Assembly: GCA_023512255.1 (NCBI GenBank)
Contig: JAILZY010000032.1
Coordinates: 1-34,185 of the forward strand
From: a bacterium
GTDB lineage: Bacteria; SZUA-182; DTGQ01
Direction of reading: 5' to 3'
Length of the DNA stretch: 34,185 nucleotides
A model generated the notes under the pieces. It had not been told where the DNA came from, did not search any database, and saw only the letters and a list, made by a program, of their open reading frames with translations. The position numbers were made by a program, and so were the translations under genes. Shown one piece after another: positions 7,733 to 26,337 of this stretch (the first letter of the stretch is position 1; every line of letters begins with the position of its first letter).

Positions 7733-8572
7733 ATGCCAAATTACTTCAAAAGGCTAACAGTATCCATTTTGGTCATGTCGGGAGCCTGCTGTGCGGCTAT
7801 TGGCTTCATCAGGCTCACCCGGGTTCTTAGCGCTTCTGCCGAGGCTACCTCTTCAGAAAGCGAGTGTGTATCATGCCATGAAAAGGTGTTTGATCATCTG
7901 CCATCTGAGAGTGTGCATAGGCCCTTTGAGGAGAAAAAGTGCTTTCACTGTCACCAGTTTCAGTTTCCTTCGCGGACAGAACACTCTTTCACCTTCCCGC
8001 AGCTTGCTTTTGATCATACCTTCTCTTTTCGTCTGAAGGGGATGGGAAATCCATCGCTGGTGTCAGCGATCTACTCTTTTTCTCCCAAGGAGATTGACAT
8101 CAATGGCGCGGCTGTGAATTTTCCTGGCACAGAAGATTTTCCCCTCATTGAGATTATCAGGGATGTTCATCGGCCTGAGGTCCTTTCGCTCAGGTGGAGG
8201 ACGAGCGAGCCTAAGCGGTGTATGGTGGAGTGGGGGGAGCAGCCTAGTTTTGGGCAGTCAGGGGCGATGGATCAGGTTCAATCGGCTCACGCTGAAAGAT
8301 TACCCCTTGGGGTAGAGATTGGCATTAATGCCTGCTATCAGTGTCATCCGAAAAGTAAGCTTGGGGTATCTCATCCGGTCAATGTTTTGCCTTCTCAGAA
8401 GATCAAGGAAAAGATGAAAATGGCCGGGTTGCCAACTGGAAAAGGTGGGCTGCTGCTGTGTGTTACCTGCCACATTCCCCATGCCAGCAGCCAAAGCTTT
8501 CTTGGCCGCAGGGCGGTTAGTGAGGAATTGTGCGTGGCCTGCCATTCGAAGGAAATTTATAATCCGCAGTGA
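7733..8572 (+). CDS. Five-haem c-type cytochrome with paired CXXCH motifs
   Basis: The protein is 279 aa from ATG 7733. In-frame starts at 7706 (ATG) and 7661 (TTG) are possible, but the signal segment (LTVSILVMSGACCAAIGFI) fits the shortest form best. There are five CXXCH sites: CVSCH, CFHCH, CYQCH, CVTCH and CVACH. The last two are separated by the HxPHAS spacing of the doubled-CXXCH family. Between sites 2 and 3 lies about 110 residues without haem sites, including LSLRWRTSEPKRCMVEWG, which resembles a fibronectin-like or receptor-type strand pattern. The gene begins about 120 nt after the lipoprotein trio and is the first cytochrome gene of the region. It is predicted to be periplasmic or outer-membrane-associated. 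Confidence 0.8.
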   Translation: MPNYFKRLTVSILVMSGACCAAIGFIRLTRVLSASAEATSSESECVSCHEKVFDHLPSESVHRPFEEKKCFHCHQFQFPSRTEHSFTFPQLAFDHTFSFRLKGMGNPSLVSAIYSFSPKEIDINGAAVNFPGTEDFPLIEIIRDVHRPEVLSLRWRTSEPKRCMVEWGEQPSFGQSGAMDQVQSAHAERLPLGVEIGINACYQCHPKSKLGVSHPVNVLPSQKIKEKMKMAGLPTGKGGLLLCVTCHIPHASSQSFLGRRAVSEELCVACHSKEIYNPQ

Positions 8573-8615
8573 GAAAAAAGCCAGACCATCTCAATCCAAG
8601 AGATAGGAGAGCGAA

Positions 8616-9188
8616 ATGGAGCATATCCAACAAAAGAGAAAATGGCTTAATCCCGGAATAAAAAGGCAGATGCAGCGGTGGATTTTAAGCCGGATTTTGC
8701 TCATTGTGGTTATCTCCTCCCTGATCAGCGGCCTTATTTTTTACGGCTACAGCAGTCGGACAATCGATTCAACCTACAAGCAGTTTCATATTCAATTGCA
8801 TAATATGCGGCAGGTCTTGCTCCCCTGGACCCTGCTGGCTCTTGGTCTTGGTGGGTTAGCCGCTTTTATGGCGGCACTATTTTATCCTCAAAAGATAGCC
8901 GGCCCTATCTATCGGCTAGAGCAGAGAATACGAAATATCGCTCTTGGGGATCTGAGAGAGGAGATTCGGCTGCGAGCAAACGATGAGCTGCAGGATTTGG
9001 CCAGAGAGATCAATCAGATGGGGGAAAGATTGCGGGAGCGGCTGCTTGAGGCCAAAGAGGTGTCCTTGCGGCTTGATAGTCTGATTCGGGAAGAGCTTGC
9101 TGGCTGCTGTTCGTCAGATGATGTGGTCAGCAGGCTACAGCATGAGAGCAGCAAGCTGAGAAAACTCTTCGATGATTTTACTCTATAG
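8616..9188 (+). CDS. Membrane protein with HAMP domain and no output domain
   Basis: The protein is 190 aa from ATG 8616, with AGGAGA about 6 nt upstream. Two transmembrane helices (residues about 25-46 and 68-90) bracket only about 20 periplasmic residues. They are followed by a HAMP linker at about 92-145 (PIYRLEQRIRNIALGDL...DELQDLAREINQMGERL), in which the P, the first-helix glutamate pattern and DEL are recognisable. The tail is a coiled coil ending at residue 190. No methyl-accepting, kinase or cyclase domain follows. The sensory loop is too small to be a classical ligand domain. A stand-alone HAMP protein may pass a membrane signal to a partner; the partner is unknown. Confidence 0.75.
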   Translation: MEHIQQKRKWLNPGIKRQMQRWILSRILLIVVISSLISGLIFYGYSSRTIDSTYKQFHIQLHNMRQVLLPWTLLALGLGGLAAFMAALFYPQKIAGPIYRLEQRIRNIALGDLREEIRLRANDELQDLAREINQMGERLRERLLEAKEVSLRLDSLIREELAGCCSSDDVVSRLQHESSKLRKLFDDFTL

Positions 9189-10647
9189 GCTGTTAGGTTG
9201 TATGATCCCTTCCTCACCGATCCCTTCTTCCTCAGGAGGCTGCTGGTTTAAGCCCTTTCTGGTGGCGATTGCTTCCCTTTTTTTTCTCGCGACAAGTAGC
9301 TGTATACTCTCTCGACAACCGAAAAGTAAAATCGTTGCCCGGATAAATGATTCTCTCATCACCACTGATGATCTGATCGAGGAGCTTCAGCGATTTCACC
9401 TTGATAAGATGCGGCCTGGGCAGGAGAGTCTGGCCGCGGCCGCAAGGCTAGATCTTCGCTCTTTTGTCGATGAATTGATCGACCGCAAGCTCTTTATTCA
9501 AGAGGCGCGGCGGATGGGGCTTGATCGGGACAGGGGCTTTTTGGCCGCCTTGGCTGATGAGCAGGAGCGCATCTGCCTTGAATTGCTCAGGCAGGATAAG
9601 ATAGTAAAGCCTTCCAGCTCGCTGAGTCAGCAAGATGTAGATAATTACTTTCGGGCGGCTGGTCATTCGCCTCGCCGCCTCTCAGACCTGAGTCGGGCTG
9701 AGCTCCAGAAGGTAAGGAGGAAGAAGGAAGAAGAGCTTAGCCGAGCCTATATTCAGGAGCTTAAGAAGCGGGCGAAAATTGAGATTTTCACCTCTAGGAT
9801 AGCTGATCTGATGAGTCTGAAAGATAGTAACTTGCCAGTTGCCCGGGTCAATGGAGAGGATATCCTAGGCAGAGAGCTTTTTGCAGAGATTGGCTCAGGG
9901 GCAGGGGAAGCAGCAGCGGCTGGCCGGGGGGGAGAGAAGGCACAAGATCTTGCGGCCTTGCAGGTTGAGCAGGGTCTTTGTCGCCTGATCGAGCACGGGC
10001 TGCTTCGCCAGGAGGCTTATCAGCTTGGATATGCGGACAGGAAAGAGGTTAAAAAGCATATGCAGCGCTATGAGGAAGATATTCTCTTTAGCCGGTTTTA
10101 TCAAAAGCTGATCACTCCGAAGGTGCAGGTTAAAAGTGAAGAGATAGAGCGCTACTTTCGGGAAAACGCTTCTTCCCTCAGGACCAAGCTTATGGTCTGT
10201 CTCGATGAAATCACAACCTTAGACCCTAATTCAGCCTGGGAAATTTATCGAGAGCTTCGCCAGGGAGCAGACTTCGGCTTTTTGGCCAGCCAGCAGGAGG
10301 CAAAGCTTCTTGCCTTGGCTGCTCAGGCTGGTGGTGAGGCGGGCAGAAGCTGTGGAGAAAGGTGGATAGCGGTTCAAGATATACAACCTGAACTGCAATC
10401 CCTGATCTTGGACCTAAAAGAGGGTGAGATAAGCGCTCCGGTGCGATTGGGCGATCGGTATTTTATTTTTAGAGTAAGAGAAAAGAGGGGGGGAGAGCAG
10501 ATTCCCCTAGAGCAAGTAAGATCACAGATCGAGCAGAAGATAGCCGCGACCTATGCCCGTTTGGTGGCTAAAGAGCTGGCTCGGCGTCTTCGGGCAGTGT
10601 CAAAGGTGGCCGTTGATGAGCGCAGCCTCAAGCAGTTGACCTTCTGA
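9172..10647 (+). CDS. Exported PpiC/SurA-type peptidyl-prolyl isomerase (parvulin)
   Basis: The protein is 491 aa from ATG 9172, overlapping the previous gene by 17 nt. ATG 9202 is an alternative that keeps the same signal peptide. The signal ends LATSSC, a plausible lipobox. Residues about 53-130 (VARINDSLITTDDLIEEL..., FVDELIDRKLFIQEARRMG) are the helical SurA_N-type chaperone segment. A second similar segment follows (ARVNGEDILGRELF). Residues about 320-460 form a rotamase-like domain (VKSEEIERYF, LREGADF-like, GE.SAPVRLGDRYFIFRVREKR). It would fold or escort envelope proteins. The operon position suggests clients among the barrel or the cytochromes, which is inference. Confidence 0.8.
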   Translation: MILLYRLLGCMIPSSPIPSSSGGCWFKPFLVAIASLFFLATSSCILSRQPKSKIVARINDSLITTDDLIEELQRFHLDKMRPGQESLAAAARLDLRSFVDELIDRKLFIQEARRMGLDRDRGFLAALADEQERICLELLRQDKIVKPSSSLSQQDVDNYFRAAGHSPRRLSDLSRAELQKVRRKKEEELSRAYIQELKKRAKIEIFTSRIADLMSLKDSNLPVARVNGEDILGRELFAEIGSGAGEAAAAGRGGEKAQDLAALQVEQGLCRLIEHGLLRQEAYQLGYADRKEVKKHMQRYEEDILFSRFYQKLITPKVQVKSEEIERYFRENASSLRTKLMVCLDEITTLDPNSAWEIYRELRQGADFGFLASQQEAKLLALAAQAGGEAGRSCGERWIAVQDIQPELQSLILDLKEGEISAPVRLGDRYFIFRVREKRGGEQIPLEQVRSQIEQKIAATYARLVAKELARRLRAVSKVAVDERSLKQLTF

Positions 10648-10873
10648 AAAGAGTTCCCCTCTTGTTGAATATCTTTCACCTCCATGAATCTTTGACTTGA
10701 ATCTTTGAAGGGTTAGGCCAATAAAAGCAGACTTTAGTGTAAATATAAATAATGAAAATAAGTTAAAAAAATTAAGATTCAAACTAATCAATTTTTATTG
10801 GAAATAAAAACTATAAATAACAATAAGTTATAAAAATAATTTCCGATTAAGTCTAGTGTAAAAGTAAAGTGTT
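10648..10873 (+). promoter_or_regulatory. AT-rich leader with a direct repeat upstream of the 26-haem cytochrome gene
   Basis: The stretch 10730-10873 is strikingly AT-rich compared with the flanking genes. It contains an imperfect direct repeat, TATAAATAATGAAAATAAG (from 10744) and TATAAATAACAATAAG (from 10812). There are also two TAGTGTAAA occurrences (about 10735 and 10854). No coding potential is visible. It separates the barrel/lipoprotein block from the cytochrome block, so it probably holds the promoter and regulator sites. I could not identify a convincing -35/-10 pair. Confidence 0.45.
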
Positions 10874-12967
10874 ATGACAGGAAGTTACTATCTCAGGAAA
10901 AGAGCAATATATCTAGCCGGCATTTTGATGCTTTTTCTCTGTAGTTTTCTATTTTCCTCTTGTCTCAAGCCGCCTTGGAAGCAGAGCCGATTTAGTGGAA
11001 GCCGCTGTAGCCAATGCCACAAGTCAAAGCTTCAAAGCTATCTGCAGAAGGCCTCGGTTCACAAGCCGGTCAGGGACAGGGATTGTCATCTGTGCCATGA
11101 GCCTCACGGGTATATTGGGGCTCTGCTGGTGCGGGATGATGGTGGGGCAGGGCTTTGTTATCGCTGCCATCCGAAAATAGCGGCTCAAACCTCGCCGCAG
11201 CAGGGCTTTGTCCATCAGGCCATCCAGCGGGGGGGAAAATGCACCGCCTGCCATGATCCCCATGCTTCGCAAGGATCTCGGCTGCTGAAACAAGAGGGGC
11301 AAAAGCTGTGTTTTTCGTGCCATGACCAGGCGCTCATCAGCCAGCCGAATCAGCATAAGGCATTAGAAAAAGGCTGTCTGGTGTGTCATCCGCCTCATGC
11401 AGCTGCCATTGGCCAGCAGGCGGCAGGGCTTTTGACCGCCAGCAGGGAGCAGGAGCTTTGCTTGCGGTGCCATTCACTTGGTAAGGAGAAGCTGGCCGCT
11501 GCCCATCAGGGATATCAGATGATTGATCAGCGCTGCTCGGCCTGCCACAATCCGCACTCTTCCAGTCAGCGGTTTCTTCTTCGCCGCACTGTGCACAAGC
11601 CGCTTCAGGATCAGGGATGTTTGGCCTGTCATCTTCCTGCTGATTCGAAGGAGCCATTTAGGGTTAAGAAAAAAGAGCGAATTGATGAATTGTGTTATCA
11701 ATGCCACCGCCGCGAACAATATAATAAATATATCAAAAGAAGCGCCCAAGCCTCTCCTCAGCCTCATCAGCCGATGCGGGAGGGTAGATGTCTTATCTGC
11801 CACACCCCCCATGCCTCAGACCGCAACGGGCTTTTGCTCGCCCAGCAAGCGGCAGTGGGCTGCTATCCCTGTCATCAGCGGATTCTGGAGGAGGCATCTC
11901 AGGATGCTGCTCACAGTCCCTTGAAGAAGGGCGAGTGCACTGTCTGCCATGATCCCCATAGTGGGGAGCTGATCCCATCTCAAGGGGAATGGTCTAAAGG
12001 GGGAGGTGGGCAGCAGGCAGCAGCAGGGCTTTGCTTTAAATGCCATGAGAAGGAAAAGAGTATGGCCAAGCAGCCAGCTACTCACGCCCCGGCCCGAAGG
12101 GGAGAGTGTCTCGCCTGTCATGTCGCTCACCTTAGCCAATCTTCAGATCTACTTAGGGAGCCGATGCCGCGGCTTTGCTACCGGTGTCATCAGGATGCGG
12201 AAAAAACATTCACCAAAGTGCACGTTCACACTCCGGTGAGAGATGGCAGGTGCCTGGGCTGTCATGAGGCCCATGCTGGAAAGCATGAGCATCTTCTGCT
12301 TTTTCCTCAGCAGGAGCTTTGCTGGAGCTGTCATCTTTCTCTACGCCACCAGCTTCAGGGTGCTTCGGCCTTGCATGCTCCACTCAAGGCTGGGGAGTGC
12401 AGGCAATGCCATGCGCCCCATGCCAGTGATTATAATAACTTGCTCTCAGGCGATGATGGCCGAATATGTCTTACCGAGCGCTGCCACCAGCCGCTGGCCA
12501 AGGCCCTTGAGGCTGAGCAGCATCAAGCTGCATCATCGGTGCATGGGCCGTTCAAAGAGCTCCAATGCCTCAGGTGCCACAGCCCTCATGGGAGTGGGAT
12601 TTCGCATCAGTTACTGAGCCAGGCTAAAACGCTCTGCTTATCCTGCCACCAGGAGCATGAGAAGAAGCTGAAATTAGACACTGCTCATCCTCCAGACCGC
12701 AAGGGAGAGTGCCTCACCTGCCATCTCGGCCATCGCTCCCCTTATCCGGCTTTGCTGGCCAAGGGGGTAGACTCAGTCTGCCTTGAATGCCACCAGCAGA
12801 CTGAGCAATCATTTCGGGTTGCTCATGGTGGCCTTGAAACTCAAAAGGGAGGCTGCCTAACCTGCCATGATCCTCATTCATCGCAGGGGAAGGGATTATT
12901 TCGGAAAGTGATTCATGAACCCTTTAAAACCAAAAAGTGCCATGTTTGTCATCAATCTGCTAAATAA
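10874..12967 (+). CDS. 26-haem c-type cytochrome lipoprotein
   Basis: The protein is 697 aa from ATG 10874, with signal segment YLAGILMLFLCSFLFSSC ending in lipobox FSSC. I count 26 haem-attachment motifs: 25 CXXCH plus one CX4CH (CLTERCH, about residue 537). They alternate in about thirteen pairs. A 'CxxCHxPHAS' motif with a conserved downstream Pro-His is followed about 30 residues later by 'LCxxCH', and each pair is preceded by a VH/AH.P...GEC segment. This is the doubled-CXXCH (paired_CXXCH) architecture of multihaem electron-transfer proteins. Lipidation would tether it to the inner or outer leaflet of an envelope membrane. It starts the second cytochrome block. Its end overlaps the next gene by 53 nt in another frame. 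Confidence 0.9.
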   Translation: MTGSYYLRKRAIYLAGILMLFLCSFLFSSCLKPPWKQSRFSGSRCSQCHKSKLQSYLQKASVHKPVRDRDCHLCHEPHGYIGALLVRDDGGAGLCYRCHPKIAAQTSPQQGFVHQAIQRGGKCTACHDPHASQGSRLLKQEGQKLCFSCHDQALISQPNQHKALEKGCLVCHPPHAAAIGQQAAGLLTASREQELCLRCHSLGKEKLAAAHQGYQMIDQRCSACHNPHSSSQRFLLRRTVHKPLQDQGCLACHLPADSKEPFRVKKKERIDELCYQCHRREQYNKYIKRSAQASPQPHQPMREGRCLICHTPHASDRNGLLLAQQAAVGCYPCHQRILEEASQDAAHSPLKKGECTVCHDPHSGELIPSQGEWSKGGGGQQAAAGLCFKCHEKEKSMAKQPATHAPARRGECLACHVAHLSQSSDLLREPMPRLCYRCHQDAEKTFTKVHVHTPVRDGRCLGCHEAHAGKHEHLLLFPQQELCWSCHLSLRHQLQGASALHAPLKAGECRQCHAPHASDYNNLLSGDDGRICLTERCHQPLAKALEAEQHQAASSVHGPFKELQCLRCHSPHGSGISHQLLSQAKTLCLSCHQEHEKKLKLDTAHPPDRKGECLTCHLGHRSPYPALLAKGVDSVCLECHQQTEQSFRVAHGGLETQKGGCLTCHDPHSSQGKGLFRKVIHEPFKTKKCHVCHQSAK

Positions 12968-14258
12968 AAAGATCCGCAAAAAGATCCGCCACCTGGTGCT
13001 GATTAGCTTACTGGCCGCTTTCCCCTCTGCATGGGCAATAGCTGCATGGGCAATAGCCGGTGAGCCTGCCTGCTTTCAGTGTCATAAGGATTTGGAAAAA
13101 AAGTGCTTATCAGGCATAGTGCATCAGGCGATCTGGCAGGATCATTGTGCAGGCTGCCACAATCCGCACACGGCCAGCTTTGATCATTTATTGGTCAGAC
13201 AGGGCGCATCGCTCTGCTATCAGTGTCATAAGGAGAAAGAAGAAAAGTGGCAGAGGCTGAAGATGCACTCACCGATTCAGCAGCAGCAGGGATGCCTTGG
13301 CTGTCATGAGCCCCATGTGTCTTCCTACCATTTCCAGGTGAAGGCGAATGAGCAGGCTTTGTGTTTTAAGTGTCATAAGGCTGAAGACTTTCAGAAAAAA
13401 TATGTGCATAAGCCGGCTCAGGAGGGAAAGTGTCAAAGATGCCATGATCCTCATGCCTCAAGAGAGGATTTTTTGCTGATCGCCCCGGCGAGGCAACTTT
13501 GCCTATCCTGTCATGGGCAGAAGAATCTAGCCGGAGTTCACTGGGGGGTTGAGGTTCGGGGCTGTGACTGCACTCTCTGCCACAGCCCACATGCTTCTGG
13601 CAGCCGGGGGCTGGTGTATGATTTTAGCCACAAGCCTTATCAGGAGCGAAATTGTCATAAATGCCACGGCGATGATCGACAAAAGCAAAGAACCCTAGTT
13701 GCTCAAGGTGCAAATCTATGCTATACTTGCCACCACCAGGAGCAGGAGAAATTCCACGAGGGGCAGGATAATTCCCACGAGGGGCAGGATAATTTCCAGG
13801 GGAAATCACGAAAGAAAAGCCACATGCCAAGCGGTAGCCGAGAGTGCTTGTGGTGTCATAATCCTCATGCCTCCAAGCGGAAAGGTCTGACTCGAAGAGA
13901 GATTAAAATTCTCTGCCTGAGCTGTCATTCTAAGATGGCAGCTCGGCTGAAAAGCGATACTCCGGCGGGGGGCAGGCATCCTGAGGTGATTAAGGGAAAC
14001 TGTACCAGTTGCCATGATCCTCATTCCTCTTTATGGCCAGAATTCTTGAAAGCAGATGCTATCATACTATGTACGAGCTGTCACATCAAGCAAAAGAAGG
14101 CTACCCATCCAGTAGGAGAAAAAGCTATTGACCCCAGAGACCGCAAGACTCAAATCAAGTGTATCACTTGCCATGATCCGATGGGGACAAAATTTAGATA
14201 TTCTCTTCGGCTTGATGGTTCACGGGCACTGTGTGAGCAATGTCACCAGAAATATTAA
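12915..14258 (+). CDS. 16-haem c-type cytochrome
   Basis: The protein is 447 aa from ATG 12915, which lies 53 nt inside the preceding gene. ATG 12942 is an alternative start, and neither has a strong ribosome site. A hydrophobic export segment (LVLISLLAAFPSAWAIA) precedes 16 CXXCH motifs in the same 'CxxCHxPHAS ... LCxxCH' pairing as the neighbouring 26-haem protein. The two are clearly paralogous but differ in length. Three in-frame tandem microduplications occur: KKIR twice, AWAIA twice and HEGQDN twice. The last lies in a hydrophilic linker between haems 10 and 11. There is no lipobox, so it is probably a soluble periplasmic or secreted electron carrier. Confidence 0.85.
   Translation: MNPLKPKSAMFVINLLNKKIRKKIRHLVLISLLAAFPSAWAIAAWAIAGEPACFQCHKDLEKKCLSGIVHQAIWQDHCAGCHNPHTASFDHLLVRQGASLCYQCHKEKEEKWQRLKMHSPIQQQQGCLGCHEPHVSSYHFQVKANEQALCFKCHKAEDFQKKYVHKPAQEGKCQRCHDPHASREDFLLIAPARQLCLSCHGQKNLAGVHWGVEVRGCDCTLCHSPHASGSRGLVYDFSHKPYQERNCHKCHGDDRQKQRTLVAQGANLCYTCHHQEQEKFHEGQDNSHEGQDNFQGKSRKKSHMPSGSRECLWCHNPHASKRKGLTRREIKILCLSCHSKMAARLKSDTPAGGRHPEVIKGNCTSCHDPHSSLWPEFLKADAIILCTSCHIKQKKATHPVGEKAIDPRDRKTQIKCITCHDPMGTKFRYSLRLDGSRALCEQCHQKY
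12966..12989. repeat. 12-bp tandem duplication
   Basis: AAAAAGATCCGC occurs twice in a row (12966-12977 and 12978-12989), encoding KKIR-KKIR-type residues just before the export signal of the 16-haem cytochrome. Confidence 0.8.
13029..13058. repeat. 15-bp tandem duplication
   Basis: GCATGGGCAATAGCT is followed directly by GCATGGGCAATAGCC (14/15 identical). It duplicates AWAIA at the signal-peptide cleavage region of the 16-haem cytochrome. Confidence 0.85.
13752..13793. repeat. 21-bp tandem duplication
   Basis: Two adjacent 21-bp units (13752-13772 and 13773-13793) differ at one base. They encode a repeated HEGQDN linker in the 16-haem cytochrome and keep the reading frame. Confidence 0.85.
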
Positions 14259-15868
14259 ACCAGGTCAAGAAGAATAGATTGACTTTGGAAGGAACCCTTT
14301 TGAAAAAGGGTTCCTTCCAAGCCATCCTCCTAAAACTTTTAATTGTTATTAAAAAAGTTTTAGGAAAGAGGGTTAGCTTAGGTCTGCTGCTGATGATTTT
14401 CATCTCAGGCTGTTTCGCCTGGCCGCGAGAGTCGACAAAAGATCAGCGGCTCTCGGATGGCACCTTGCGTCTTTTTTTGCAGTTTTCCTGCCCAGGCCGA
14501 GAGGAGATTTCCTTTACGGTGTCGCAGATTCAAGCTCATAGGGCTGATGGTGAGGTAATTTTTCGGACAGTTGATCAGGTTTTGCAGGCAGGAGGTGAGC
14601 CGCGGCAGGTGATTATCACGGTCAATCTACCGACCGGAGCCTATCAGAAGATTGGCTTATCATTCGCCGGGGCCAAGGTTCAGCAGCCTGCTGCAGGAGT
14701 GATTCCCCTTGAGACTCCCCAAGAGCCCACTTTTTTGGATTTGGATATTCCGCTGCTGATCAGCCCCCGGAAAGTTATCAGTGCGCATCTTAACCTTGAG
14801 GTTCGCTCTCAAAGCATGGACAAGGATGAGGCTAAAGGCAGGGAAAGGGTTCTTTTTTCTTCCCGGCTGAGCCAGGGGAAGCGGTCGACAGCTTTGAAAT
14901 CCCTGATGTTGTATGTTACTAATATGGCGGATAATACCGTATCAGTGCTTGATCGGGTGAACAATTCCCTGGTTTCTGTGATTCAGGTGGGAAAGGAGCC
15001 GCAAGGGATTGTGGTCAATGAGCAGGGCACTTACGCCTATGTGGCCAATGCCGGCTCCAACACGGTTTCGATCATTGATACCTTGACTGGGGAGGTGGAT
15101 GAGACCGTAGATCTGCCTCTAGGGATCTATCCTTCGGGCATAACCATCACCTCGGATGGGAAGTATGTCTTGGTGGCCAATCGAGACAGTGATAATGTAA
15201 CTGTGATCGATACCGACTTAAAAAGATCGATTTACACCTTCAGGGTTGGCCACAAGCCGATCGACCTTCGGGTCAGTCCAGCCACAGGGCGGTGGCTATA
15301 TGTTACCAACCAGGGCTCCCGTGATCTTTACATTGTCAGTCTTGAAAGCCGCAAGTTAGTAGACAGGGTCCCCTTGCAGGCGGAAAGCTCAGGTATAGCG
15401 GCTATGGCGGTCAATTTTGCTCAGGATCGGCTTTTCATTGCCGATCCTAGTTCTTCGGCTATACTGGTGCTTGATATTGATCTTGAAAAATTGCATAGGC
15501 AGGAGCAGTCGCCCCAGGATCATTTCTCACCAGGTCATTCGGTGATTAAATCCTCCCTGCTTCAGGGAGAGTATGGTCCGGTCAGGATCGTTTTGGATGA
15601 GGATCGCGGCCGGCTCTATGCGGCTAACCAGAAAGATAATTCGGTCAGCAGCTTTCCTATCGCTTTGACTTCAATGAACATTCAGGAAAGCCGCTATCAG
15701 GTGGGCCAAAAGCCGATAGGTTTGGCTCTTGACAAGGCGCGAAATTACCTTTATGTTGTTAATAGTGCTGATGACAGCCTGTCGATCATTGACCTTCGTC
15801 AGGAGCGGGTCGTTGAATCGATCCGAGTTGGCCGCAAGCCGTTTGGCATTGATTTAATTCAAAAGTAA
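14240..15868 (+). CDS. YVTN-family beta-propeller lipoprotein with repeat-derived N-terminus
   Basis: The protein is 542 aa from ATG 14240, overlapping the 16-haem gene by 19 nt. In-frame TTG codons at 14279, 14285 and 14300 are alternative starts. Every candidate start has the family-2 repeat (14286-14366) encoding about 27 residues before the hydrophobic segment LGLLLMIFISGC, which ends in lipobox ISGC. Residues about 70-200 form a beta-rich domain of unknown type. From about residue 225, YVTN repeats follow (LYVTNMADNTVSVLD, AYVANAGSNTVSIID, VLVANRDSDNVTVID, LYVVNSADDSLSIID), each with a VG..P.GI linker, giving a 6-7-bladed propeller. It is probably a surface or periplasmic partner of the adjacent cytochromes; its ligand is unknown. 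Confidence 0.8.
   Translation: MSPEILNQVKKNRLTLEGTLLKKGSFQAILLKLLIVIKKVLGKRVSLGLLLMIFISGCFAWPRESTKDQRLSDGTLRLFLQFSCPGREEISFTVSQIQAHRADGEVIFRTVDQVLQAGGEPRQVIITVNLPTGAYQKIGLSFAGAKVQQPAAGVIPLETPQEPTFLDLDIPLLISPRKVISAHLNLEVRSQSMDKDEAKGRERVLFSSRLSQGKRSTALKSLMLYVTNMADNTVSVLDRVNNSLVSVIQVGKEPQGIVVNEQGTYAYVANAGSNTVSIIDTLTGEVDETVDLPLGIYPSGITITSDGKYVLVANRDSDNVTVIDTDLKRSIYTFRVGHKPIDLRVSPATGRWLYVTNQGSRDLYIVSLESRKLVDRVPLQAESSGIAAMAVNFAQDRLFIADPSSSAILVLDIDLEKLHRQEQSPQDHFSPGHSVIKSSLLQGEYGPVRIVLDEDRGRLYAANQKDNSVSSFPIALTSMNIQESRYQVGQKPIGLALDKARNYLYVVNSADDSLSIIDLRQERVVESIRVGRKPFGIDLIQK
14286..14366. repeat. Double-hairpin repeat family 2, copy 1
   Basis: It consists of a first inverted repeat, GGAAGGAACCC / GGGTTCCTTCC around a short A/T loop, and a second, CCTAAAAC(T)TTTAAT / ATTAAAAAAGTTTTAGG. 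The two are joined by a GCCATCCT linker. The reverse complement is almost identical to 26406-26490. Here it lies inside the 5' part of an open reading frame rather than between genes. The first hairpin is strong enough to affect translation or attenuate transcription of the propeller gene. Confidence 0.8.
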
Positions 15869-18368: not shown

Positions 18369-18479
18369 GGTAAAGGCGAGGCAAAAGCCGAAAAAGAGTC
18401 AGTGGCGGAGAAGTCGTTGCTTGGGTTGAGTGTAAGTAGCCGATTAGTTATATTTTTTTATTTGCCTTTTCCTAGAGAG

Positions 18480-18498: not shown

Positions 18499-18626
18499 AA
18501 TACCCCCGGCTTACAGAATATTATACCATATCTGCGGACAAGAAATTCGTGTAAGTTCAAACATAGTGTCGCCTTTTTATGTTATTTTAAATCCATAACT
18601 CATCAAAACAATAGGAGTCCGTCCCC

Positions 18627-19781
18627 ATGGCAGATAAAAGAGTTCCTGAAGCCGTTTTTCTGCTTGTAATCCTCTATTTCGTAATCTTTGTTTGCCTTAC
18701 CTGGAGCCCCAGATCTGCACGGGCAGCAGATCAGGAAAACTGCATGTTGTGTCATCGCTACTCCGGCCTTGGATGTTTTGACAAGGAAACGGGAGCCAAA
18801 AGAATATTCTACGTAAGTGAAGGGCTCTACCGCAATAGTGTTCATAACAATGTCTTGTGCAGTCACTGCCACACGGATGTTACCGAGGTTCCTCATAAGC
18901 CAGCCAAAAAAGTAAACTGTGCTACTCAGTGTCATGTAAAGGATCCTTCCACGAATAAAGATTTTTCCCACAAAATCGTTGTTGATGAGTTTAAAAAGAG
19001 TGTTCATGGCAAGTCCCCGCTGTTTACCTTTGAAGAGGGTCAGCCGCGGTGTAAGTATTGCCATACTAATCCCCTCTATTCTCCTCTAAGGGGCATTCTG
19101 GCTCAAAAGCCGGGCTGTGAATCAGAGGCCCTGGCTAGATGTGTGGCCTGCCATGAAAAGAGCCCCTGGGCCAGCAGATTCTTAAAGCATTTTGTTTCCA
19201 GGACCGCACCGCGCTGGAATAAGAAACAGATTGTCGATCTTTGCAACAATTGTCATGCAGATAAAAAGCTGATGCAGAACTTTGGGCTTGAAAGCACAGA
19301 GAATTTCAAGCAGACCTTCCACTGGCGTAATGTGAAATATGAGGCTGAAAACGGCGCTGACTGCCTCAGTTGTCATGGTCCGCGGAAGTTAGGTTTCTCC
19401 GCCCATACGATCTTGCCTGTGGATGATCCGACCTCGCCACTCTATGCAGAAAATCGTGTCAAAACCTGCGGGCAGTCAGGATGCCATCAGGGAGCTACTA
19501 AGCTTTTTGCCTCTGGTGCAGTTCATGGCACTGGGGTAAAGGCAGCCCTGCTGGAGAAAAAATTGCGGGCTGAGGGAGAGGAAATCTCGCCAGAGGAAAA
19601 GAAAAAGCTGCGGACTGAAATTGATGATGCTGGTATGACCAAGCTACAGCAAACTATTATCTGGGGAATCAAGACCTTTTATAAGGTGATGATCGTTTTG
19701 GTTGGAGGATTTATGTTCATCCACCAGCTTCTTGATTTGAGAATAACCTTGAAAGAGAGAAGAGAAGGGAGGCATCATTAA
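18627..19781 (+). CDS. Membrane-anchored eight-haem cytochrome c with non-canonical motifs
   Basis: The protein is 384 aa from ATG 18627, with ATAGGAG upstream. A signal segment is followed by six CXXCH sites at residues 39, 78, 142, 172, 206 and 246. One CX3CH (CATQCH, about 98) and one CX4CH (CGQSGCH, about 281) bring the candidate haem total to eight. A helical charged region precedes a C-terminal transmembrane helix at about 345-368 (FYKVMIVLVGGFMFIHQLL), so the haem domain faces the periplasm. The gene is 2 nt from the following b-type cytochrome gene. Together they look like a quinol-oxidising or quinone-reducing bc-type complex similar in plan to Cbc-type complexes of Geobacter; the exact family is not certain. 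Confidence 0.85.
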   Translation: MADKRVPEAVFLLVILYFVIFVCLTWSPRSARAADQENCMLCHRYSGLGCFDKETGAKRIFYVSEGLYRNSVHNNVLCSHCHTDVTEVPHKPAKKVNCATQCHVKDPSTNKDFSHKIVVDEFKKSVHGKSPLFTFEEGQPRCKYCHTNPLYSPLRGILAQKPGCESEALARCVACHEKSPWASRFLKHFVSRTAPRWNKKQIVDLCNNCHADKKLMQNFGLESTENFKQTFHWRNVKYEAENGADCLSCHGPRKLGFSAHTILPVDDPTSPLYAENRVKTCGQSGCHQGATKLFASGAVHGTGVKAALLEKKLRAEGEEISPEEKKKLRTEIDDAGMTKLQQTIIWGIKTFYKVMIVLVGGFMFIHQLLDLRITLKERREGRHH

Positions 19782-19783
19782 TC

Positions 19784-20578
19784 ATGGCCAAGAAATGGGG
19801 AAGAAGAGCTGAGGATCAGGAATGGTTTCCACGCCTGTCACGGGTGGAAGTATGGCAGCATAATATTGTTTGGATATGTTTTGTTTTGCTGGTGGCCACG
19901 GGAATGATGTCCTTGATACCGACCGATTGGGTAACGGCTTTGTTTGGTAACTACACCGCGCAGGTATATTATTATCGCCGAGTGGCTCATCTGATTTTGG
20001 CCGCTATTTTGATTGCTGGCTCGATCTGGCATCTTGCTTACGGCATATTTACTAAGCCCGGCAGACAAATGCTGATTGACATGATTCCAACTCTTAATGA
20101 TGCCGTCCAGATGAAGCAGAACATTCTCTACATGCTCGGCATGTCAGACTCCAAGCCTAAATTCGATCGGTTTGATTATCGGGAAAAGATGGAGTATATC
20201 TTTGGGCTAATTGGTACTACGGTTATCTGTGTAACCGGGGTAGTAATGACCTTTGCCCCGTTTTTTCCCAGATTCATGGTTGAGGTTTGTGGTACGATTC
20301 ACCTGTGTGAGGCTACGCTGGCCAGTATCACTATTTCAATCTGGCACTTTTACGGCGTACACTGGAAACCTGGTAAATTCCCGCAAGATACCTCATGGAT
20401 TGACGGGTTGGTAAGCATGGAACATCTAAAACATGAGCATCCTCTCCAATGGGAGCGAGTGATGAAGGAAAGACAAATGGCCAAACAAGGAGTCAAGGAT
20501 GCCTCCTCAGTAGCTACCTCATGGGGCGGGCAGCATGATCACCATAATAACACCACGCTGGAAGCGGGGGAGGAATAA
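19784..20578 (+). CDS. Cytochrome b561/FdnI-like di-haem membrane subunit
   Basis: The protein is 264 aa from ATG 19784, with AAGGGAGG upstream. Four transmembrane helices lie at about 27-46, 67-90, 137-160 and 172-192. Candidate b-haem ligands are H26 (WQHN), H69 (RRVAHL), H83 (IWHLAYG), H173 (TIHL), H188 (IWHFYG) and H193 (GVHW). The pattern resembles the gamma subunits of formate dehydrogenase and related cytochrome b/b6-type quinol-reactive proteins. A cytoplasmic tail (residues 200-264) is His-rich and charged. It would exchange electrons with menaquinone and pass them to the cytochromes encoded on either side, which are 2-3 nt away. Confidence 0.85.
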   Translation: MAKKWGRRAEDQEWFPRLSRVEVWQHNIVWICFVLLVATGMMSLIPTDWVTALFGNYTAQVYYYRRVAHLILAAILIAGSIWHLAYGIFTKPGRQMLIDMIPTLNDAVQMKQNILYMLGMSDSKPKFDRFDYREKMEYIFGLIGTTVICVTGVVMTFAPFFPRFMVEVCGTIHLCEATLASITISIWHFYGVHWKPGKFPQDTSWIDGLVSMEHLKHEHPLQWERVMKERQMAKQGVKDASSVATSWGGQHDHHNNTTLEAGEE

Positions 20579-20581
20579 GCA

Positions 20582-21559
20582 ATGTTGAAAGGTCGAGGGA
20601 ATCTAGCTAAGGCAATCAGTGGTACATCAGCAGTGCTTTTAGTGATAGCCCTGCTTATGATGATCAAAGCATTCTTTTTTCCTAAAAAAGGGGTTCACTA
20701 TGGTCCACCAGTGGTTGAGTTTGAAAAGATAAAATCCCCAACTGCCCCGAAGGTGGAAACTGCCGAGATAAAGCTTGCCAATAAGGATGTATTTGCCAAG
20801 ATCTTGAAAACCAAAACCTACTCTCAAATGGAGCACTTCCATAATATTGACAACACCTTGGATATCAAAAAGAGGGTCCCGACTCTTTGCCTGATCTGCC
20901 ACGGTAATTATCCCCACAGCAAGAACAAGGAAGTGCGGGCGCTGTATAATATGCATACCTATTTCTGTGCCTGTGAAACCTGTCATCTGCGGGCTCCAAA
21001 CCTGACCTTTGTCTGGTTCGACAACTATACTGGCGAGGAGATTCCGGAGATCAAGGAGCGGGTTCCTGATGGAGTCTATGCCGGAAACTATGGAGCCAAA
21101 ATTGTCCCCTGTGTGTTGGATAAGATCGGGAAACATCAAAGACTTGATCAGCCGATTTCAGAGGAATATGCAAAAGAGTATTTAAAACTCTGGGCTCAGT
21201 ACACCTACGATCAGCAGTCGCAGGCCAAGGCTGAAGCCCACAAGGGTCTGGCTCAGGAGCCTGTTACTTGCACCGAATGTCATCGCCGGAGGAATCCTTA
21301 CTTAGACTTTAAGGCCTTGGGGTATCCTCAGCATCTGTGCGATGAGTTCACCGGAACTGAGGTGGCTGGTATGGTCGCCAAATATAAGTCCTTGAAGCTG
21401 CCTACTATGTTTAGACCGGAAAATATTATCGAGGGAAAAGAGAATCTGAAAGATGGCAAGATTATCCTCCCAGCGGTGGAGCAAGGGGAGACAATTCTGG
21501 ATGAGAGCGGGGCTGGTAGTCCTGCAAGTGATGCCAATGGTCAACGCGGTGTAAATTAA
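20582..21559 (+). CDS. Tri-haem membrane-anchored cytochrome c subunit
   Basis: The protein is 325 aa from ATG 20582, with GGGGGAGG upstream. An N-terminal anchor helix at about 15-33 (SAVLLVIALLMMIKAFFF) is followed by a periplasmic domain. This has CLICH (103-107), CETCH (131-135, preceded by CAC) and CTECH (230-234), and several lone histidines (H84, H86, H112, H125, H184). The last 60 residues are low-complexity and acidic. Genes are packed 3 nt from the b-type subunit and overlap the following NHL gene by 1 nt, so it is likely a subunit of the same complex. It does not match NapC/NrfH in length or spacing. Confidence 0.8.
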   Translation: MLKGRGNLAKAISGTSAVLLVIALLMMIKAFFFPKKGVHYGPPVVEFEKIKSPTAPKVETAEIKLANKDVFAKILKTKTYSQMEHFHNIDNTLDIKKRVPTLCLICHGNYPHSKNKEVRALYNMHTYFCACETCHLRAPNLTFVWFDNYTGEEIPEIKERVPDGVYAGNYGAKIVPCVLDKIGKHQRLDQPISEEYAKEYLKLWAQYTYDQQSQAKAEAHKGLAQEPVTCTECHRRRNPYLDFKALGYPQHLCDEFTGTEVAGMVAKYKSLKLPTMFRPENIIEGKENLKDGKIILPAVEQGETILDESGAGSPASDANGQRGVN

Positions 21560-22626
21560 TGAGTGCTGGGCTAGGGAAGAGAATGATTGAGCGCTGGGGG
21601 GAAGCGGGCAGAAGCAGGGTGGCAGTGGCGGCGATAAGGATGGGGCGAGCAGCATCGGCAAGCGGTAGGAAATCGCTCTGGTTGCTGCTTTGTCTAGCTG
21701 CTGTGATTTTTTTCCTCTTGCCTTCGGGATGGGGCAGCAGGCTAGCCTGCGCTATTGAGATTATCGAGGCTAAGCACCTATTTGATATTCAAAAAAATGC
21801 GGTTTCTCCCCCGCTTGATCAGCCTAGCGCTGTAGCTGTTGATCCGCAAAACAGAATCTGGGTCTTGGACGGAGTCAATGGCCGGCTGGTAGGGTTTTCA
21901 TACCAGGGTAAGTACCTGACTCAGTTCGGCCGGAAGGGAAGCGGCCCGGGGGAATTCAAATCCCCACTTGGAATGATGATCGACTCAGAAGGCCGCATCT
22001 ACGTGGCAGATTCCAAGAATCATCGCCTTCAGGTATTTGACGCCGAAGGCGCCCCTCTCTCTCAGGTCTATATCTCTCCTGACAAGTATGGATCATTGGC
22101 CGATCCTACAGATATTGCCTTAGATGAGGGCAGAAGGCAGTTTGTGGTAGTCGATAATGACAATCACCGGCTCTTGATCTATAGCCAGAAGTTTGAACTG
22201 ATGAAAGAGCTCGGCGGGGTTGGCTACGAGAGTGGGAAATTTCGCTATCCATACGCTCTGTGTCTGGATAAGTCAGGAAATATCTATGTTACCGATGTGA
22301 TCAATACCAGGGTAGAGGTGCTTTCTCCTAAGGGAGACTACATTCGCAGTATCGGCGAGTGGGGGATTGAAAAAGGGCAGTTTTTCCGGCCTCAATCTAT
22401 CTGCATGGATGGTAAGGGAAGGGTTTTTGTTGGTGAAAATTACGTCAAGATCGGCTTGATTCAGGTTTTCGACCAGCAGGGCAATTTCCTTGGCGTGATC
22501 GGTGATCCCTCGAAGAAGGAAATTCGGTTTCAGGTACCAGCAGATATCTTTGTTGATCAGCAGAACCGATTGTATGTCGTTCAGATGTATACCAGTACAA
22601 TTAGTGTGTATTCACTTAATCAATAA
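21559..22626 (+). CDS. NHL-repeat beta-propeller protein
   Basis: The protein is 355 aa from ATG 21559, which shares one base with the upstream TAA. A hydrophobic stretch at about 39-58 (SLWLLLCLAAVIFFLLPSGW) is a signal or anchor behind a basic N-terminus. NHL-type blades follow: QPSAVAVDPQNRIWVLD, SPLGMMIDSEGRIYVADSKNHRLQVF, YPYALCLDKSGNIYVTDVINTRVEV and RPQSICMDGKGRVFVGE. That makes a six-bladed propeller of typical length for this fold. No catalytic residue pattern is visible. Operon position between a cytochrome and a 28-haem protein suggests a scaffold or docking role in the electron-transfer complex, by inference. Confidence 0.8.
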   Translation: MSAGLGKRMIERWGEAGRSRVAVAAIRMGRAASASGRKSLWLLLCLAAVIFFLLPSGWGSRLACAIEIIEAKHLFDIQKNAVSPPLDQPSAVAVDPQNRIWVLDGVNGRLVGFSYQGKYLTQFGRKGSGPGEFKSPLGMMIDSEGRIYVADSKNHRLQVFDAEGAPLSQVYISPDKYGSLADPTDIALDEGRRQFVVVDNDNHRLLIYSQKFELMKELGGVGYESGKFRYPYALCLDKSGNIYVTDVINTRVEVLSPKGDYIRSIGEWGIEKGQFFRPQSICMDGKGRVFVGENYVKIGLIQVFDQQGNFLGVIGDPSKKEIRFQVPADIFVDQQNRLYVVQMYTSTISVYSLNQ

Positions 22627-22647
22627 GTTAAGAGAGAAATTCGGCTC

Positions 22648-25600
22648 ATGTTCCGCTTCTTTTATAGGCAAGGCAGGTGGGTGTCTGTGAAGAGTGATAT
22701 TCCCAAAGGGCTGCCCTCTTCCTCCCTTTATTGGCTAGTGGCCAATGTCATCTGTTTTTTCCTCCTTCAACTCGGCTTTCACCCTTTGGCCTTTGGGCAG
22801 ATGGTTCCAAATTCTGCCAAGGAGTGCGCTATCTGTCACTTTCGGTGGATGGATCAGTTTTATTATGAAGGTCGGGGCACAGATCTTGTCGAGTATCAAA
22901 AGGAGCGTGATGCGGCTGATGAGATGATGTGCTATAGCTGCCACAACGGCATCCTGGTTGACTCGCGTGAGCGGTTTTGGGCAAAACGCGGCCATCGGGT
23001 AAATATGGTGCCTTCGGACAAGGTTCGCATTCCTCCTGAGATGCCTCTTGATGAGAAAAAGCAGGTCGTCTGCGGCACCTGTCATACTGCTCATGGGGTA
23101 GCGGATGAGCTGCGCTATCAGCAGACCATTTACCTTCGGTTTCCAAACCGCAATTCAGAGATTTGCATCAAGTGTCATGTCGATAAAGTCGGCGGGCCGC
23201 GTGAGGGGAATCATCCGATTGGGGTTAATTCACTGCCGATTCCAGCCAGGATTTTGGATAATTATGGCCGCTCAGGGGTAAAAAAGGATGCGGTAATCTG
23301 CGAAACCTGCCATACGGTGCATGGGACTACGGATAAAAATCTGCTAGTCATTCCCACCAAAGTGGATAATGAATATAATGCTCTCCTGTGCGAATCCTGC
23401 CATACTGCTAATCCGAGCATGAAAGGCAAAGGGTTAGGCCTTGGTTCTCACCCGGTTGATATTGTTCCGAAACTCAACATGCCTAAAAAATGGGCTGGAG
23501 GATCGGCTTTGATCACCGGAGCCCAAAATCAGATTATCTGCTTAAGTTGTCACTGTCCGCATAAGGCCCAAAAAGAGACCTCGATTCTAGCCAGTGGAGC
23601 CAAATCGCCGATCTGCATCGAATGCCACCGTCAGGAGAGCCTGGTGGCCAAGACCGAGCATGACCTTTCTTTATCTGCACCGGCTGAGCTTAGCCCTACA
23701 AGTAAAGTAGGCTCACAGACAGGAATCTGCGGTGCTTGTCATTGGCCTCATAATGCGCAAAGTTATCGGCTTTGGTCAAGGCCGTTATCTGGCCTCAAGG
23801 GTGATGTAGGCTCAAAGATGTGCGCAAGTTGCCATAATGAAAAATCTTGTGGTCAAAAGAAGCTGGTTGGAACCTTCAGTCATCCGGTCAACCGCGACCT
23901 GTCAAAGCTTAAGGTTAAGAAGGTTGATTTTCCAACCTACGATGAGCAAGGTAAGCCCTTATCTGAAGGAGAGGCCGGGGGGAGAATCATGTGTGCCACC
24001 TGCCATAATCCCCACCAGTGGGACCCTGCTAGGAAAGAGTGCGGCCCGGGAGAGATGGTTGAGGGAGGACAGAAGGATAGCTTTTTGCGGATGGCTAATA
24101 ATGAGCATTCTCACCTTTGCCTAGCCTGCCACCAGAGCCAAAAATCGGTGATTGATACCGAGCATGACCTCCGCTTAACGGCCAAAGAAGAGCCAAATTG
24201 GCTGGGGCAAAAATGCACCGAATCTGGGCCGTGCAGTGCCTGCCACATCGTGCATAATGCGCAAGGTGATAAGCTTTGGGCTAGGCTGCTGCCCAAGGCT
24301 GAAGATCCAATATCTGGATATTGCCAAAGTTGCCATCGGCAGAATTCTTGTGCTGAGAAAAAACTGGTTGGCACCTACACGCATCCAGTTGGAGTTGATA
24401 TCAAATTGGCTGATGATAAAACTAGCCTCCCTCTCTTTGATAAGGCGGGCAGGGTATCGGCTCAAGGCAGATCGGTTACCTGCTCTACCTGCCACAATGT
24501 TCATCAGTGGAGGCCGGATCAAACCGACCGAGGACCGGGCAAAAACCTTGAGGGAGATGGAAGGGATAGCTTTCTTCGGATAGCGAATGACACCGAATCT
24601 ACGCTATGTTTGGACTGCCATAAGAAACAGCAGTATGTGGCCAAGACCGATCATGATCTTAGGTTTATGGCCCCAAAAGAGAAGAATTATCTCGGTGATC
24701 CGCCTCGAAAATCTGGCCTGTGCGGTGCCTGCCACTTAGCCCACAACGGAGCGTCAATCCTGATGTTTGCCAAGATGCCTAATGCTGAGGCAGATGTAGC
24801 TAACCAATTGTGCCTGAGTTGCCATAAGGAAAAGGGTTGTGCGGAGAAAAAGCTGGTCGGCGCTTATAGTCATCCTATGGATAAGGGAATTCAGGCGGCT
24901 GATGGAAAGACGCAGCTTCCCCTGTACGCACCTGACGGCAGCAAACAGCCGAGCGGAAAGGTTGCCTGCGCATCCTGCCACAGCGCTCATCAGTGGGCGC
25001 CCTCAGAGTTAGCTTGCGGAAGTGGAGAAAATAGAGAAGGGACAGCTAAGGACAGCTTCCTTCGGCTGCCAATGCTGCCTGAGCCTGCGCTGTGTGAGGA
25101 TTGCCACCAAAGAGAATGCTTGGTCGCCAACACCGATCATGATCTTCGGCTTCTGGCCGAGGGGGAGCGGAATATCCAGAATCAGACAGTCGGAGACTCT
25201 GGCATCTGCTCTGCCTGTCATCTGGTCCATAATGCGCCATCGAACAATCTGTGGGCCAGGGAGCTTCCAGTGATAGCAGCAGGCAGCAGTCTGATCGGTC
25301 AGGAATGTGCAAGCTGCCACAGCCGAGGCAAGGTGGGTGATAAGAAAATAATTGCGGATTTTTCTCATCCGGTCGATATCCGTCCTATGGACAAGGGAAT
25401 AACCACCAATCTTCCTCTATATACCATGAGTGGTGAGATTGAACAATCTGGAGGAGGCTTTTTAACCTGCACAACCTGCCATGATCCCCACCTGTGGACA
25501 CCTGCCCAACATCCTGCGGCGGCGGCAGAGCAGCCGAGAGAGTCTTCGGCCAAAGCCGCCTCTAGCAAAGGAAAATCTTCTGGCAAGGCCAAGGCAGCCG

Positions 25601-26337
25601 CCTTGCTGAAGAATCAGGAAGGTGATATCCACAGCAGTTTTCTTAGGCTGGATGAGAGGCCGACAGAGAATATGTGCACCGATTGCCATAAGGATCAACG
25701 CTATGTCTGCAAGAGTGAACATGACTTGAGCCTTCTGTCTCCTCAGGAGACTAATGTCCAGGGCCATACCGTGGCCCAATCAGGGGTCTGCTCGGCCTGC
25801 CATCTGGTTCATAACAGTCCGATTAAAACCTTGCTCTGGGCAAGGAGGCTGCCGCCTGAGAATGACTTTATGCTGGCTACCTGTTTGTCTTGTCATGAAA
25901 AGGGAAAGTGTGCCGGAGAGAAAGCCGTTTTTGTTGGTCTGCATCCTAGCTCTTTTGTCTATACGGGGAAAATAACTCAATTTCGCCGGATGGGAGATGC
26001 GGATTATAAGACCTATTTTCCCCTGTACGATAAGCAGGGCAGAAAGTCTCCCGTAGGGTTTGTAACCTGCCCTACCTGCCACAGCGCTCATCAGTGGGAT
26101 CCTGACTCCAAAGAATACCCAAGCTTGGGGAAAAATATCGAAGGCGATCCCCGAAATAGCTTTCTCCGAAACAGCGGGGCTGATTTTTCCATCTGCCTAG
26201 ATTGCCATGGGTTTGAGGCCATGCTAAAGTATAAGAATTACCATGTTTCTTCAGAGTGGCATCAAAAATACTGGCGACCTGGGCAGGATGTAAAACCGAC
26301 TGGGGTCAATATCACCGAGAAAAAACCAGTGCCGTAA
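22648..26337 (+). CDS. 28-haem c-type cytochrome built from tetrahaem repeats
   Basis: The protein is 1229 aa from ATG 22648; in-frame GTG codons at 22681 and 22687 are alternatives ahead of the same signal segment (WLVANVICFFLLQLGFHPLAFG). There are 28 CXXCH motifs. The first eight lie in an N-terminal part (residues 60-327). From about residue 360 the protein repeats a unit of about 162-168 residues five times, starting near 360, 528, 690, 852 and 1047. Each unit has GxCxACHxxHN, LCxSCH, KKLVGxYSHPV, LPLYD..G, TCxTCHxxHQW, DSFLR, LCLDCH and T/SEHDLRL. The SHPV and EHDL histidines are conserved and are candidate axial ligands. Repeat 4 has a 33-residue Ala/Ser/Lys-rich insert near 953-985. 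It is likely a periplasmic wire. Confidence 0.9.
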   Translation: MFRFFYRQGRWVSVKSDIPKGLPSSSLYWLVANVICFFLLQLGFHPLAFGQMVPNSAKECAICHFRWMDQFYYEGRGTDLVEYQKERDAADEMMCYSCHNGILVDSRERFWAKRGHRVNMVPSDKVRIPPEMPLDEKKQVVCGTCHTAHGVADELRYQQTIYLRFPNRNSEICIKCHVDKVGGPREGNHPIGVNSLPIPARILDNYGRSGVKKDAVICETCHTVHGTTDKNLLVIPTKVDNEYNALLCESCHTANPSMKGKGLGLGSHPVDIVPKLNMPKKWAGGSALITGAQNQIICLSCHCPHKAQKETSILASGAKSPICIECHRQESLVAKTEHDLSLSAPAELSPTSKVGSQTGICGACHWPHNAQSYRLWSRPLSGLKGDVGSKMCASCHNEKSCGQKKLVGTFSHPVNRDLSKLKVKKVDFPTYDEQGKPLSEGEAGGRIMCATCHNPHQWDPARKECGPGEMVEGGQKDSFLRMANNEHSHLCLACHQSQKSVIDTEHDLRLTAKEEPNWLGQKCTESGPCSACHIVHNAQGDKLWARLLPKAEDPISGYCQSCHRQNSCAEKKLVGTYTHPVGVDIKLADDKTSLPLFDKAGRVSAQGRSVTCSTCHNVHQWRPDQTDRGPGKNLEGDGRDSFLRIANDTESTLCLDCHKKQQYVAKTDHDLRFMAPKEKNYLGDPPRKSGLCGACHLAHNGASILMFAKMPNAEADVANQLCLSCHKEKGCAEKKLVGAYSHPMDKGIQAADGKTQLPLYAPDGSKQPSGKVACASCHSAHQWAPSELACGSGENREGTAKDSFLRLPMLPEPALCEDCHQRECLVANTDHDLRLLAEGERNIQNQTVGDSGICSACHLVHNAPSNNLWARELPVIAAGSSLIGQECASCHSRGKVGDKKIIADFSHPVDIRPMDKGITTNLPLYTMSGEIEQSGGGFLTCTTCHDPHLWTPAQHPAAAAEQPRESSAKAASSKGKSSGKAKAAALLKNQEGDIHSSFLRLDERPTENMCTDCHKDQRYVCKSEHDLSLLSPQETNVQGHTVAQSGVCSACHLVHNSPIKTLLWARRLPPENDFMLATCLSCHEKGKCAGEKAVFVGLHPSSFVYTGKITQFRRMGDADYKTYFPLYDKQGRKSPVGFVTCPTCHSAHQWDPDSKEYPSLGKNIEGDPRNSFLRNSGADFSICLDCHGFEAMLKYKNYHVSSEWHQKYWRPGQDVKPTGVNITEKKPVP

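Follow-up and report, generated by a model that had tools for sequence, protein, structure and literature searches.

A multihaem cytochrome island composed of an Oet-type conduit module and a second module of separate descent

Known conduits and the locus under study

A gene cluster core of a beta-propeller, a 26-haem protein, a 16-haem protein and a peptidyl-prolyl isomerase (PPIase) is described in Skennerton 2017 (PMC5539420). In Murali 2023 (PMC10553843), the conduit is given the name OetABI and OmcS-like neighbours are mentioned, and GSU2495 is a 26-haem protein of Geobacter sulfurreducens (PMC12977616). A cluster of Deferribacter combines 28- and 10-haem cytochromes with a cytochrome b561 and has a presumed role in Fe(III) reduction (PMC6896113, PMC13186404); the Fe(III) reducer D. 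autotrophicus lacks CbcL, ImcH and CymA and has 28-haem and 10-haem cytochromes encoded in one cluster (PMC6896113). Here, we analyse a cytochrome gene island on a contig of 34,185 bases from an uncultured anaerobic bacterium (JAILZY010000032.1; G000:C10), the whole of which is referred to as the window and which belongs to a genome of 3.83 Mb (96.6% complete). The island consists of two modules with different histories, B (4039-15868 plus gene g13) and A (18627-26337). By gene content, gene order and haem numbers, module B is a published Oet-type conduit, with the named proteins OetA, OetB and OetI compared by description. We consider it probable, at roughly two chances in three, that A and B together form a complete trans-envelope system for electron export. 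The closest named relatives of the genome are metagenome-assembled genomes (MAGs), and a member of the same class (L054) is labelled Candidatus Schekmanbacteria. The seven closest relatives are referred to as G001-G007; G001 is a sister species, G002 belongs to the same family and G004 to another.

An earlier reading, made from the sequence alone, had counted 105 haem sites in eight genes. The recount returned the same numbers, namely 5, 26, 16, 8, 11, 8, 3 and 28 motifs in gene order, in open reading frames (ORFs) within 7661-26337; the start at 7733 given earlier is the first ATG in an ORF whose TTG start is at 7661. The motifs comprise 102 CXXCH, one CX3CH and two CX4CH, with 25 CXXCH and one CX4CH in g9 and six CXXCH, one CX3CH and one CX4CH in g14. 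By chance, a mean of 0.00-0.36 CXXCH is expected per shuffled protein, less than one when summed over the eight proteins, and none occurs in any frame on the minus strand of the haem-rich region. The irregular sites are supported by their conservation in relatives: all sites of g9 (26/26) align in a relative in which the counterpart of the CX4CH is a plain CXXCH, and the cysteines of the CX3CH and CX4CH of g14 are invariant across 53 homologues. Throughout the genome, the nucleotide motif was matched 554 times compared to 63 times in the reversed control, and the genome is therefore rich in cytochromes overall. Pfam and NCBIfam profiles likewise bore out the proposed b-type cytochrome (PF01292), YVTN and NHL propellers, PPIC-type foldase and CsgG/LpoB-like lipoproteins.

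The island exceeds the segment 7733-26337 to which it had been assigned. It extends from 306 or 4039 to 26337 and probably continues upstream onto a second contig. An assembly artefact was dismissed because relatives retain the gene linkage; the genes are linked there and not scattered, as the sequence-only reading would require. What that reading had missed is that the island is made up of two modules of separate descent.

Module B and the Oet-type conduit

Module B was taken as g2, g3-g5, g6, g7, g8, g9, g10 and g11, plus g13. These genes are listed below together with g12, which lies between g11 and g13.

g2, 4039..5760, plus strand: predicted outer-membrane beta-barrel in an OetI-like position; adjoins g3-g5 in G001 and G002 too
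g3, 5782..6375, plus strand: CsgG/LpoB/GNA1162-like lipoprotein (Pfam); the family also adjoins PPIase-26-haem-16-haem cassettes of other lineages
g4, 6372..6971, plus strand: divergent CsgG/LpoB-like secreted protein, no Pfam match; its G001 orthologue also matches g5 (blastp)
g5, 6968..7612, plus strand: CsgG/LpoB/GNA1162-like lipoprotein (Pfam), lipobox VAGC
g6, 7661..8572, plus strand: 5-haem cytochrome c, 5 CXXCH, Paired_CXXCH; five motifs in G001, G002 and G004 as well
g7, 8616..9188, plus strand: membrane protein with HAMP domain (Pfam)
g8, 9172..10647, plus strand: PPIC/SurA-type PPIase (Rotamase_2, SurA_N), lipobox TSSC; position before the 26-haem gene conserved
g9, 10874..12967, plus strand: 26-haem lipoprotein cytochrome c in the OetB position, 26 motifs, lipobox FSSC; full-length 26-haem relatives, match to PDB 6R2Q chain A
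g10, 12915..14258, plus strand: 16-haem periplasmic cytochrome c in the OetA position, 16 motifs, no lipobox; relatives, profile match to PDB 6R2Q chain A
g11, 14240..15868, plus strand: YVTN beta-propeller lipoprotein (TIGR02276), lipobox ISGC
g12, 15987..16907, plus strand: 8-haem cytochrome c, 8 motifs, paralogue of g13
g13, 16926..18368, plus strand: 11-haem cytochrome c, 11 motifs, paralogue of g12

As in the Oet-type cassettes of Seep-SRB, Ca. Desulfofervidus and Desulfuromonadales, a PPIase, a 26-haem lipoprotein, a 16-haem protein, a propeller and a presumed barrel occur in one cassette. The 26-haem and 16-haem genes are adjacent, the PPIase and a beta-propeller are encoded in the same operon, and the outer g9 is a lipoprotein whose periplasmic partner g10 lacks a lipobox. 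OmcS-like genes, found near Oet-type cassettes, also accompany the module in relatives of the window species. The published Oet-type propeller is six-bladed, whereas the adjacent g11 is of the YVTN type and the six-bladed type is represented by the NHL protein g17. The window further differs from the Oet type in its 5-haem gene, two or three CsgG/LpoB-like lipoproteins, the neighbouring module A and a host without dsrA.

Other described systems are more distant. The gene mix had been considered unlike Mtr, Omc and Pio clusters; it is indeed not Mtr, OmcB or Pio, but the propeller, 26-haem, 16-haem and PPIase genes constitute the published Oet core. Decahaem-wire-like sequence in g9 and g10 is shared with MtrCAB/PioAB, although the wires here have 26 and 16 haems, and chain A of 6R2Q, oddly labelled in its file, is the decahaem MtrA wire of MtrCAB. 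The best score for the OmcA/MtrC family (TIGR03507) was 32.5 bits against a cut-off of 209, and g9, with its 26 haems, exceeded the cut-off of TIGR03508 (DmsE/MtrA-type; 220.5 versus 192.2 bits) only via seven repeated stretches. The Uet complex of Tenderiales/Gallionella shares PPIase and NHL proteins with the window but differs in its haem numbers (11/4/3). PCC3 also combines very large multihaem proteins, a barrel and an inner-membrane protein, but with haem numbers of 21-27 plus 10-35; its inner-membrane protein has five helices and two HX13H motifs (PMC5566968), whereas g15 displays the His26/69/173/188 pattern of FdnI.

A search with a 26-haem profile gave matches, part of them partial, in 27 of 386 genomes and led to cassettes sharing the core. 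Most of the 26-haem/16-haem cassettes (L157-L170) contain CsgG/LpoB-like lipoproteins, which the consulted parts of the literature on the conduit do not mention as cassette partners; in the window, these lipoproteins and the upstream barrel g2 belong to module B. In three distant genomes (L167, L168, L170), one 42-haem protein replaces the pair of 26-haem and 16-haem proteins, and the replacement suggests that the two proteins are in physical contact. Next to the cassette of G318 lies a clear OmcS homologue (E=3.5e-44). Three genes without counterpart in the window separate the PPIase and 26-haem genes in G001 (L019 9069-12306); the one that was checked had no Pfam match. Orthologues of g13 carry 14 motifs, and the window copy is short of about 92 residues with three N-terminal motifs.

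The barrel that the sequence-only reading had placed upstream stands in part. Its position is conserved, and hhalign related g2 to the presumed barrels of other 26-haem cassettes with a probability of 92.7%, using a profile from which a protein of 625 aa at L160, a TPR protein, was left out. An AF2 model built from three sequences displays long antiparallel strands, at a confidence (predicted local distance difference test, pLDDT, of 38) usable for the strand pattern only. No Pfam match to g2 was obtained.

Module A and the surroundings of the island

Module A comprises the following five genes.

g14, 18627..19781, plus strand: octahaem cytochrome c, 8 motifs, membrane helix at the C-terminus (322-381 of the model); 53 homologues
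g15, 19784..20578, plus strand: di-haem cytochrome b of the FdnI/HydC type (PF01292)
g16, 20582..21559, plus strand: membrane-anchored trihaem cytochrome c, 3 motifs, all three invariant in 20 homologues
g17, 21559..22626, plus strand: six-bladed NHL beta-propeller (PF01436, PF17170)
g18, 22648..26337, plus strand: secreted 28-haem cytochrome c, 28 motifs, four-haem repeat about 160 residues long

Over its full length, the profile of g15 matches FdnI of E. coli (1KQF chain C; E=2.2e-21), and four histidines (His26, His69, His173, His188) do not vary among 32 homologues. As in FdnI, these residues would bind two haems b beside a menaquinone site, and oxidation of menaquinol by g15 is predicted. 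In g18, the motifs of a repeat are spaced by 52-57/42/38/30 residues, the N-terminus is hydrophobic and lacks a lipobox, and all 28 motifs are aligned in 7 class members. Comparison to the PDB gave only a weak match to NrfB. Homologues with 18, 20, 24, 28 and 38 motifs were seen, some of the lower counts being at contig ends. OmcV was dropped as a match to the 38-haem form, as PMC6148476 applies this name to the 12-haem ExtG.

By protein search, g14 is present in G001-G007 and was not found in G008. The order of the genes following it is kept, with g15 of G005 not recovered as an ORF. Besides the class of the window, module A occurs in named genomes of Gammaproteobacteria, Deferribacterota and Desulfurobacteriaceae, in genomes labelled Nitrospirota and Deltaproteobacteria, and in Sumerlaeota MAGs. 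For 32 g14 homologues, 9 kb or more of downstream sequence is available; the b subunit follows in 31 of these, the trihaem protein in 30, the NHL protein in 24 and a protein with at least 18 haems in 25. The Deferribacterota loci have the order octahaem, b, trihaem, NHL and 28-haem.

Compared by description, module A resembles CbcL/CbcBA of Geobacter, in which a multihaem cytochrome c and a di-haem cytochrome b act as a quinol:cytochrome c oxidoreductase. The c-b fusion of CbcL is mirrored by some module A homologues in which the c and b parts are fused (L034, G059), but in module A the octahaem, b and trihaem subunits are encoded separately, and the NHL protein and an 18-38-haem protein come after them. 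The nearest description found is the 19-gene cluster DEFDS_0741-60 of Deferribacter, which has 28-haem, 10-haem and b561 genes together; the likeness is by description only and, unlike in the window, no Oet cassette is described there. In the open-licence literature, no paper was found that names module A as a unit, and an existing name may have been missed.

The outer-membrane genes beside module A vary. In Gammaproteobacteria (L061, L067), it adjoins lipoprotein propellers, a 670-680-residue protein ending in Phe and a 12-13-haem protein, and in Desulfurobacteriaceae (L082) a 421-residue protein and a 7-haem lipoprotein. Our guess is that the 670-680-residue protein, which has a Phe end as in barrels, and the 421-residue protein might be barrels; neither gave a Pfam match. 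Because module A adjoins different outer-membrane sets in different lineages, we tentatively consider a broader proposal, to be taken as a whole and held with less than even confidence. Module A may be a transferable, general menaquinol-to-wire unit, in which a quinol-oxidising complex of b, octahaem and trihaem subunits and its own periplasm-spanning wire are plugged into unrelated outer-membrane conduits: Oet here, and other presumed barrels in Gammaproteobacteria and Desulfurobacteriaceae. The length of the wire would be set by tandem four-haem repeats (18, 20, 24, 28 or 38 haems), and the wire would replace small periplasmic carriers.

Upstream of module B lies g1:

g1, 306..3905, plus strand: large secreted protein; Pfam domains fibronectin-III, Big_1 and invasin-D3; orthologue in the same position in G001

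It is likely a surface adhesion or scaffold protein. Directly upstream of g1, G001 encodes an NHL protein, an OmcS-like 5-haem protein (E=6.7e-07 versus OmcS), another NHL protein and a 27-haem protein of 2,561 residues that ends 53 bases before g1. The same gene set is found on contig C121 of the window genome, which breaks inside the giant gene. This 27-haem protein has internal repeats and exceeds 2,200 residues (L121 4057-10856, G000:C121; L181 10703-18388, G001). In G001, G002 and G004, the contig with module B also carries OmcS-like genes; they lie beyond module B in G002, and several lie between modules B and A in G004, one with E=9.5e-10. Positions 1-305 of the window are non-coding, and the end of the 27-haem gene seen there in G001 is not present, possibly reflecting assembly trouble at the contig end. 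A second cluster of the genome (L120, G000:C120:5000-24999) contains 27-, 22- and 10-haem proteins adjoining another PPIase, and in a third (L122, G000:C88), 14- and 15-haem proteins occur alongside NHL proteins. On the minus strand downstream of the island (26494-33790), inspection revealed a run of cobalamin biosynthesis genes (CobQ-like, cobyrinate diamide synthase-like, several precorrin methyltransferases, cobalamin adenosyltransferase-like).

Electron path, direction of flow and partnership of the modules

In the proposed export system, menaquinol would be oxidised at the inner membrane by g15 together with g14 and g16, both of which carry membrane helices. Electrons would then pass to g18 as a long periplasmic wire, whose assembly or docking may be aided by the NHL propeller g17. 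The 16-haem g10, seated in barrel g2, would hand them to the external lipoprotein g9 as in an Oet-type conduit, giving the path menaquinol, g15/g14/g16, g18, g10 in g2, g9, exterior. The PPIase g8, the propeller g11 and the CsgG/LpoB-like lipoproteins may fold, anchor or place the conduit; in this lineage, the OmcS-like cytochrome and the giant 27-haem protein would carry electrons onward to a mineral or another cell. A conduit from menaquinol to the exterior, as proposed by the sequence-only reading, is still the best reading. In no paper was the full order of B followed by A found, and one Deltaproteobacteria MAG (L088) has nearly the same gene order as the window.

No haem-copper oxidase, bd oxidase or dsrA scored over the cut-off in the genome, and for this reason the likeliest flow is outward, with menaquinol as the source and an acceptor outside the cell. 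The same hardware might work inward: a partner archaeon, Fe(II) or a cathode would supply electrons, which would enter by B and reduce menaquinone via A. Several carriers of module A are indeed named as sulfur oxidisers (Sulfurimicrobium, Sedimenticola, Thiodiazotropha), but no obvious electron sink was found in a search that covered dsrA and the two oxidase types and left out nitrate and other sinks, and we consider inward flow unlikely.

The modules differ in their histories. Window and G002, members of one family, share 69-76% identity in module A, compared to 49-57% between G002 and G004; in module B, the pattern is reversed (26-54% versus 47-65%). By this pattern, g12 goes with module A and g13 with module B. 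Trees of the concatenated genes of A and B disagree, with support of 100/100 on the conflicting branches; in the single-gene trees also made, that of the 26-haem protein was flagged for long branches. Since the gene trees disagree, A and B appear to have been assembled from, or later exchanged as, independent parts; ancient paralogues with differential loss are a possible alternative. Outer cytochromes evolve faster, but fast evolution alone fails to account for G002 grouping with G004 and not with its own family.

These differing trees would also fit two modules that are neighbours and not partners, A feeding a periplasmic acceptor or another conduit and B being served by other inner-membrane enzymes. 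In G002, the modules have opposite orientations, in G004 about 20 kb separates them, G005-G007 have module A and no 26-haem match at the threshold used, and many lineages carry A without B nearby. However, A and B share a contig in G000, G001, G002, G004 and the distant L088/G179, which is unlikely for unrelated genes, and we regard a lack of partnership as improbable. It is hardly credible that the many haems act chiefly to store electrons: haem numbers are very high and large cytochromes have been suggested to have a storage role (PMC10734462), but storage needs no b subunit of the quinone-reactive type, barrel or outer lipoprotein cytochrome, and the gene order is maintained over large distances.

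Some points weigh against the export system itself. The separate trees leave the neighbourhood of A and B as the sole ground for their joint function, and the model of g2 is poor. For g14, Foldseek with a fair AlphaFold model (pLDDT 76) returned no PDB match at E<=0.001. The absent oxidases and dsrA leave other soluble acceptors possible, and in the partners of methanotrophic archaea, this type of conduit is believed to work inward.

As far as found, the outer half of the system is of a known type, and the inner half is widespread and not described as a unit. Because the Oet-type conduit occurs here in a lineage without dsrA, it is no mark of sulfate-reducing syntrophy. For extracellular respiration in general, it is unsettled by what route electrons get from the quinol oxidase across the periplasm to the outer-membrane conduit. 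As a candidate for the entire inner half, module A is conserved and genetically linked, and it occurs in lineages with cultured members, the Deferribacterota and the Desulfurobacteriaceae.
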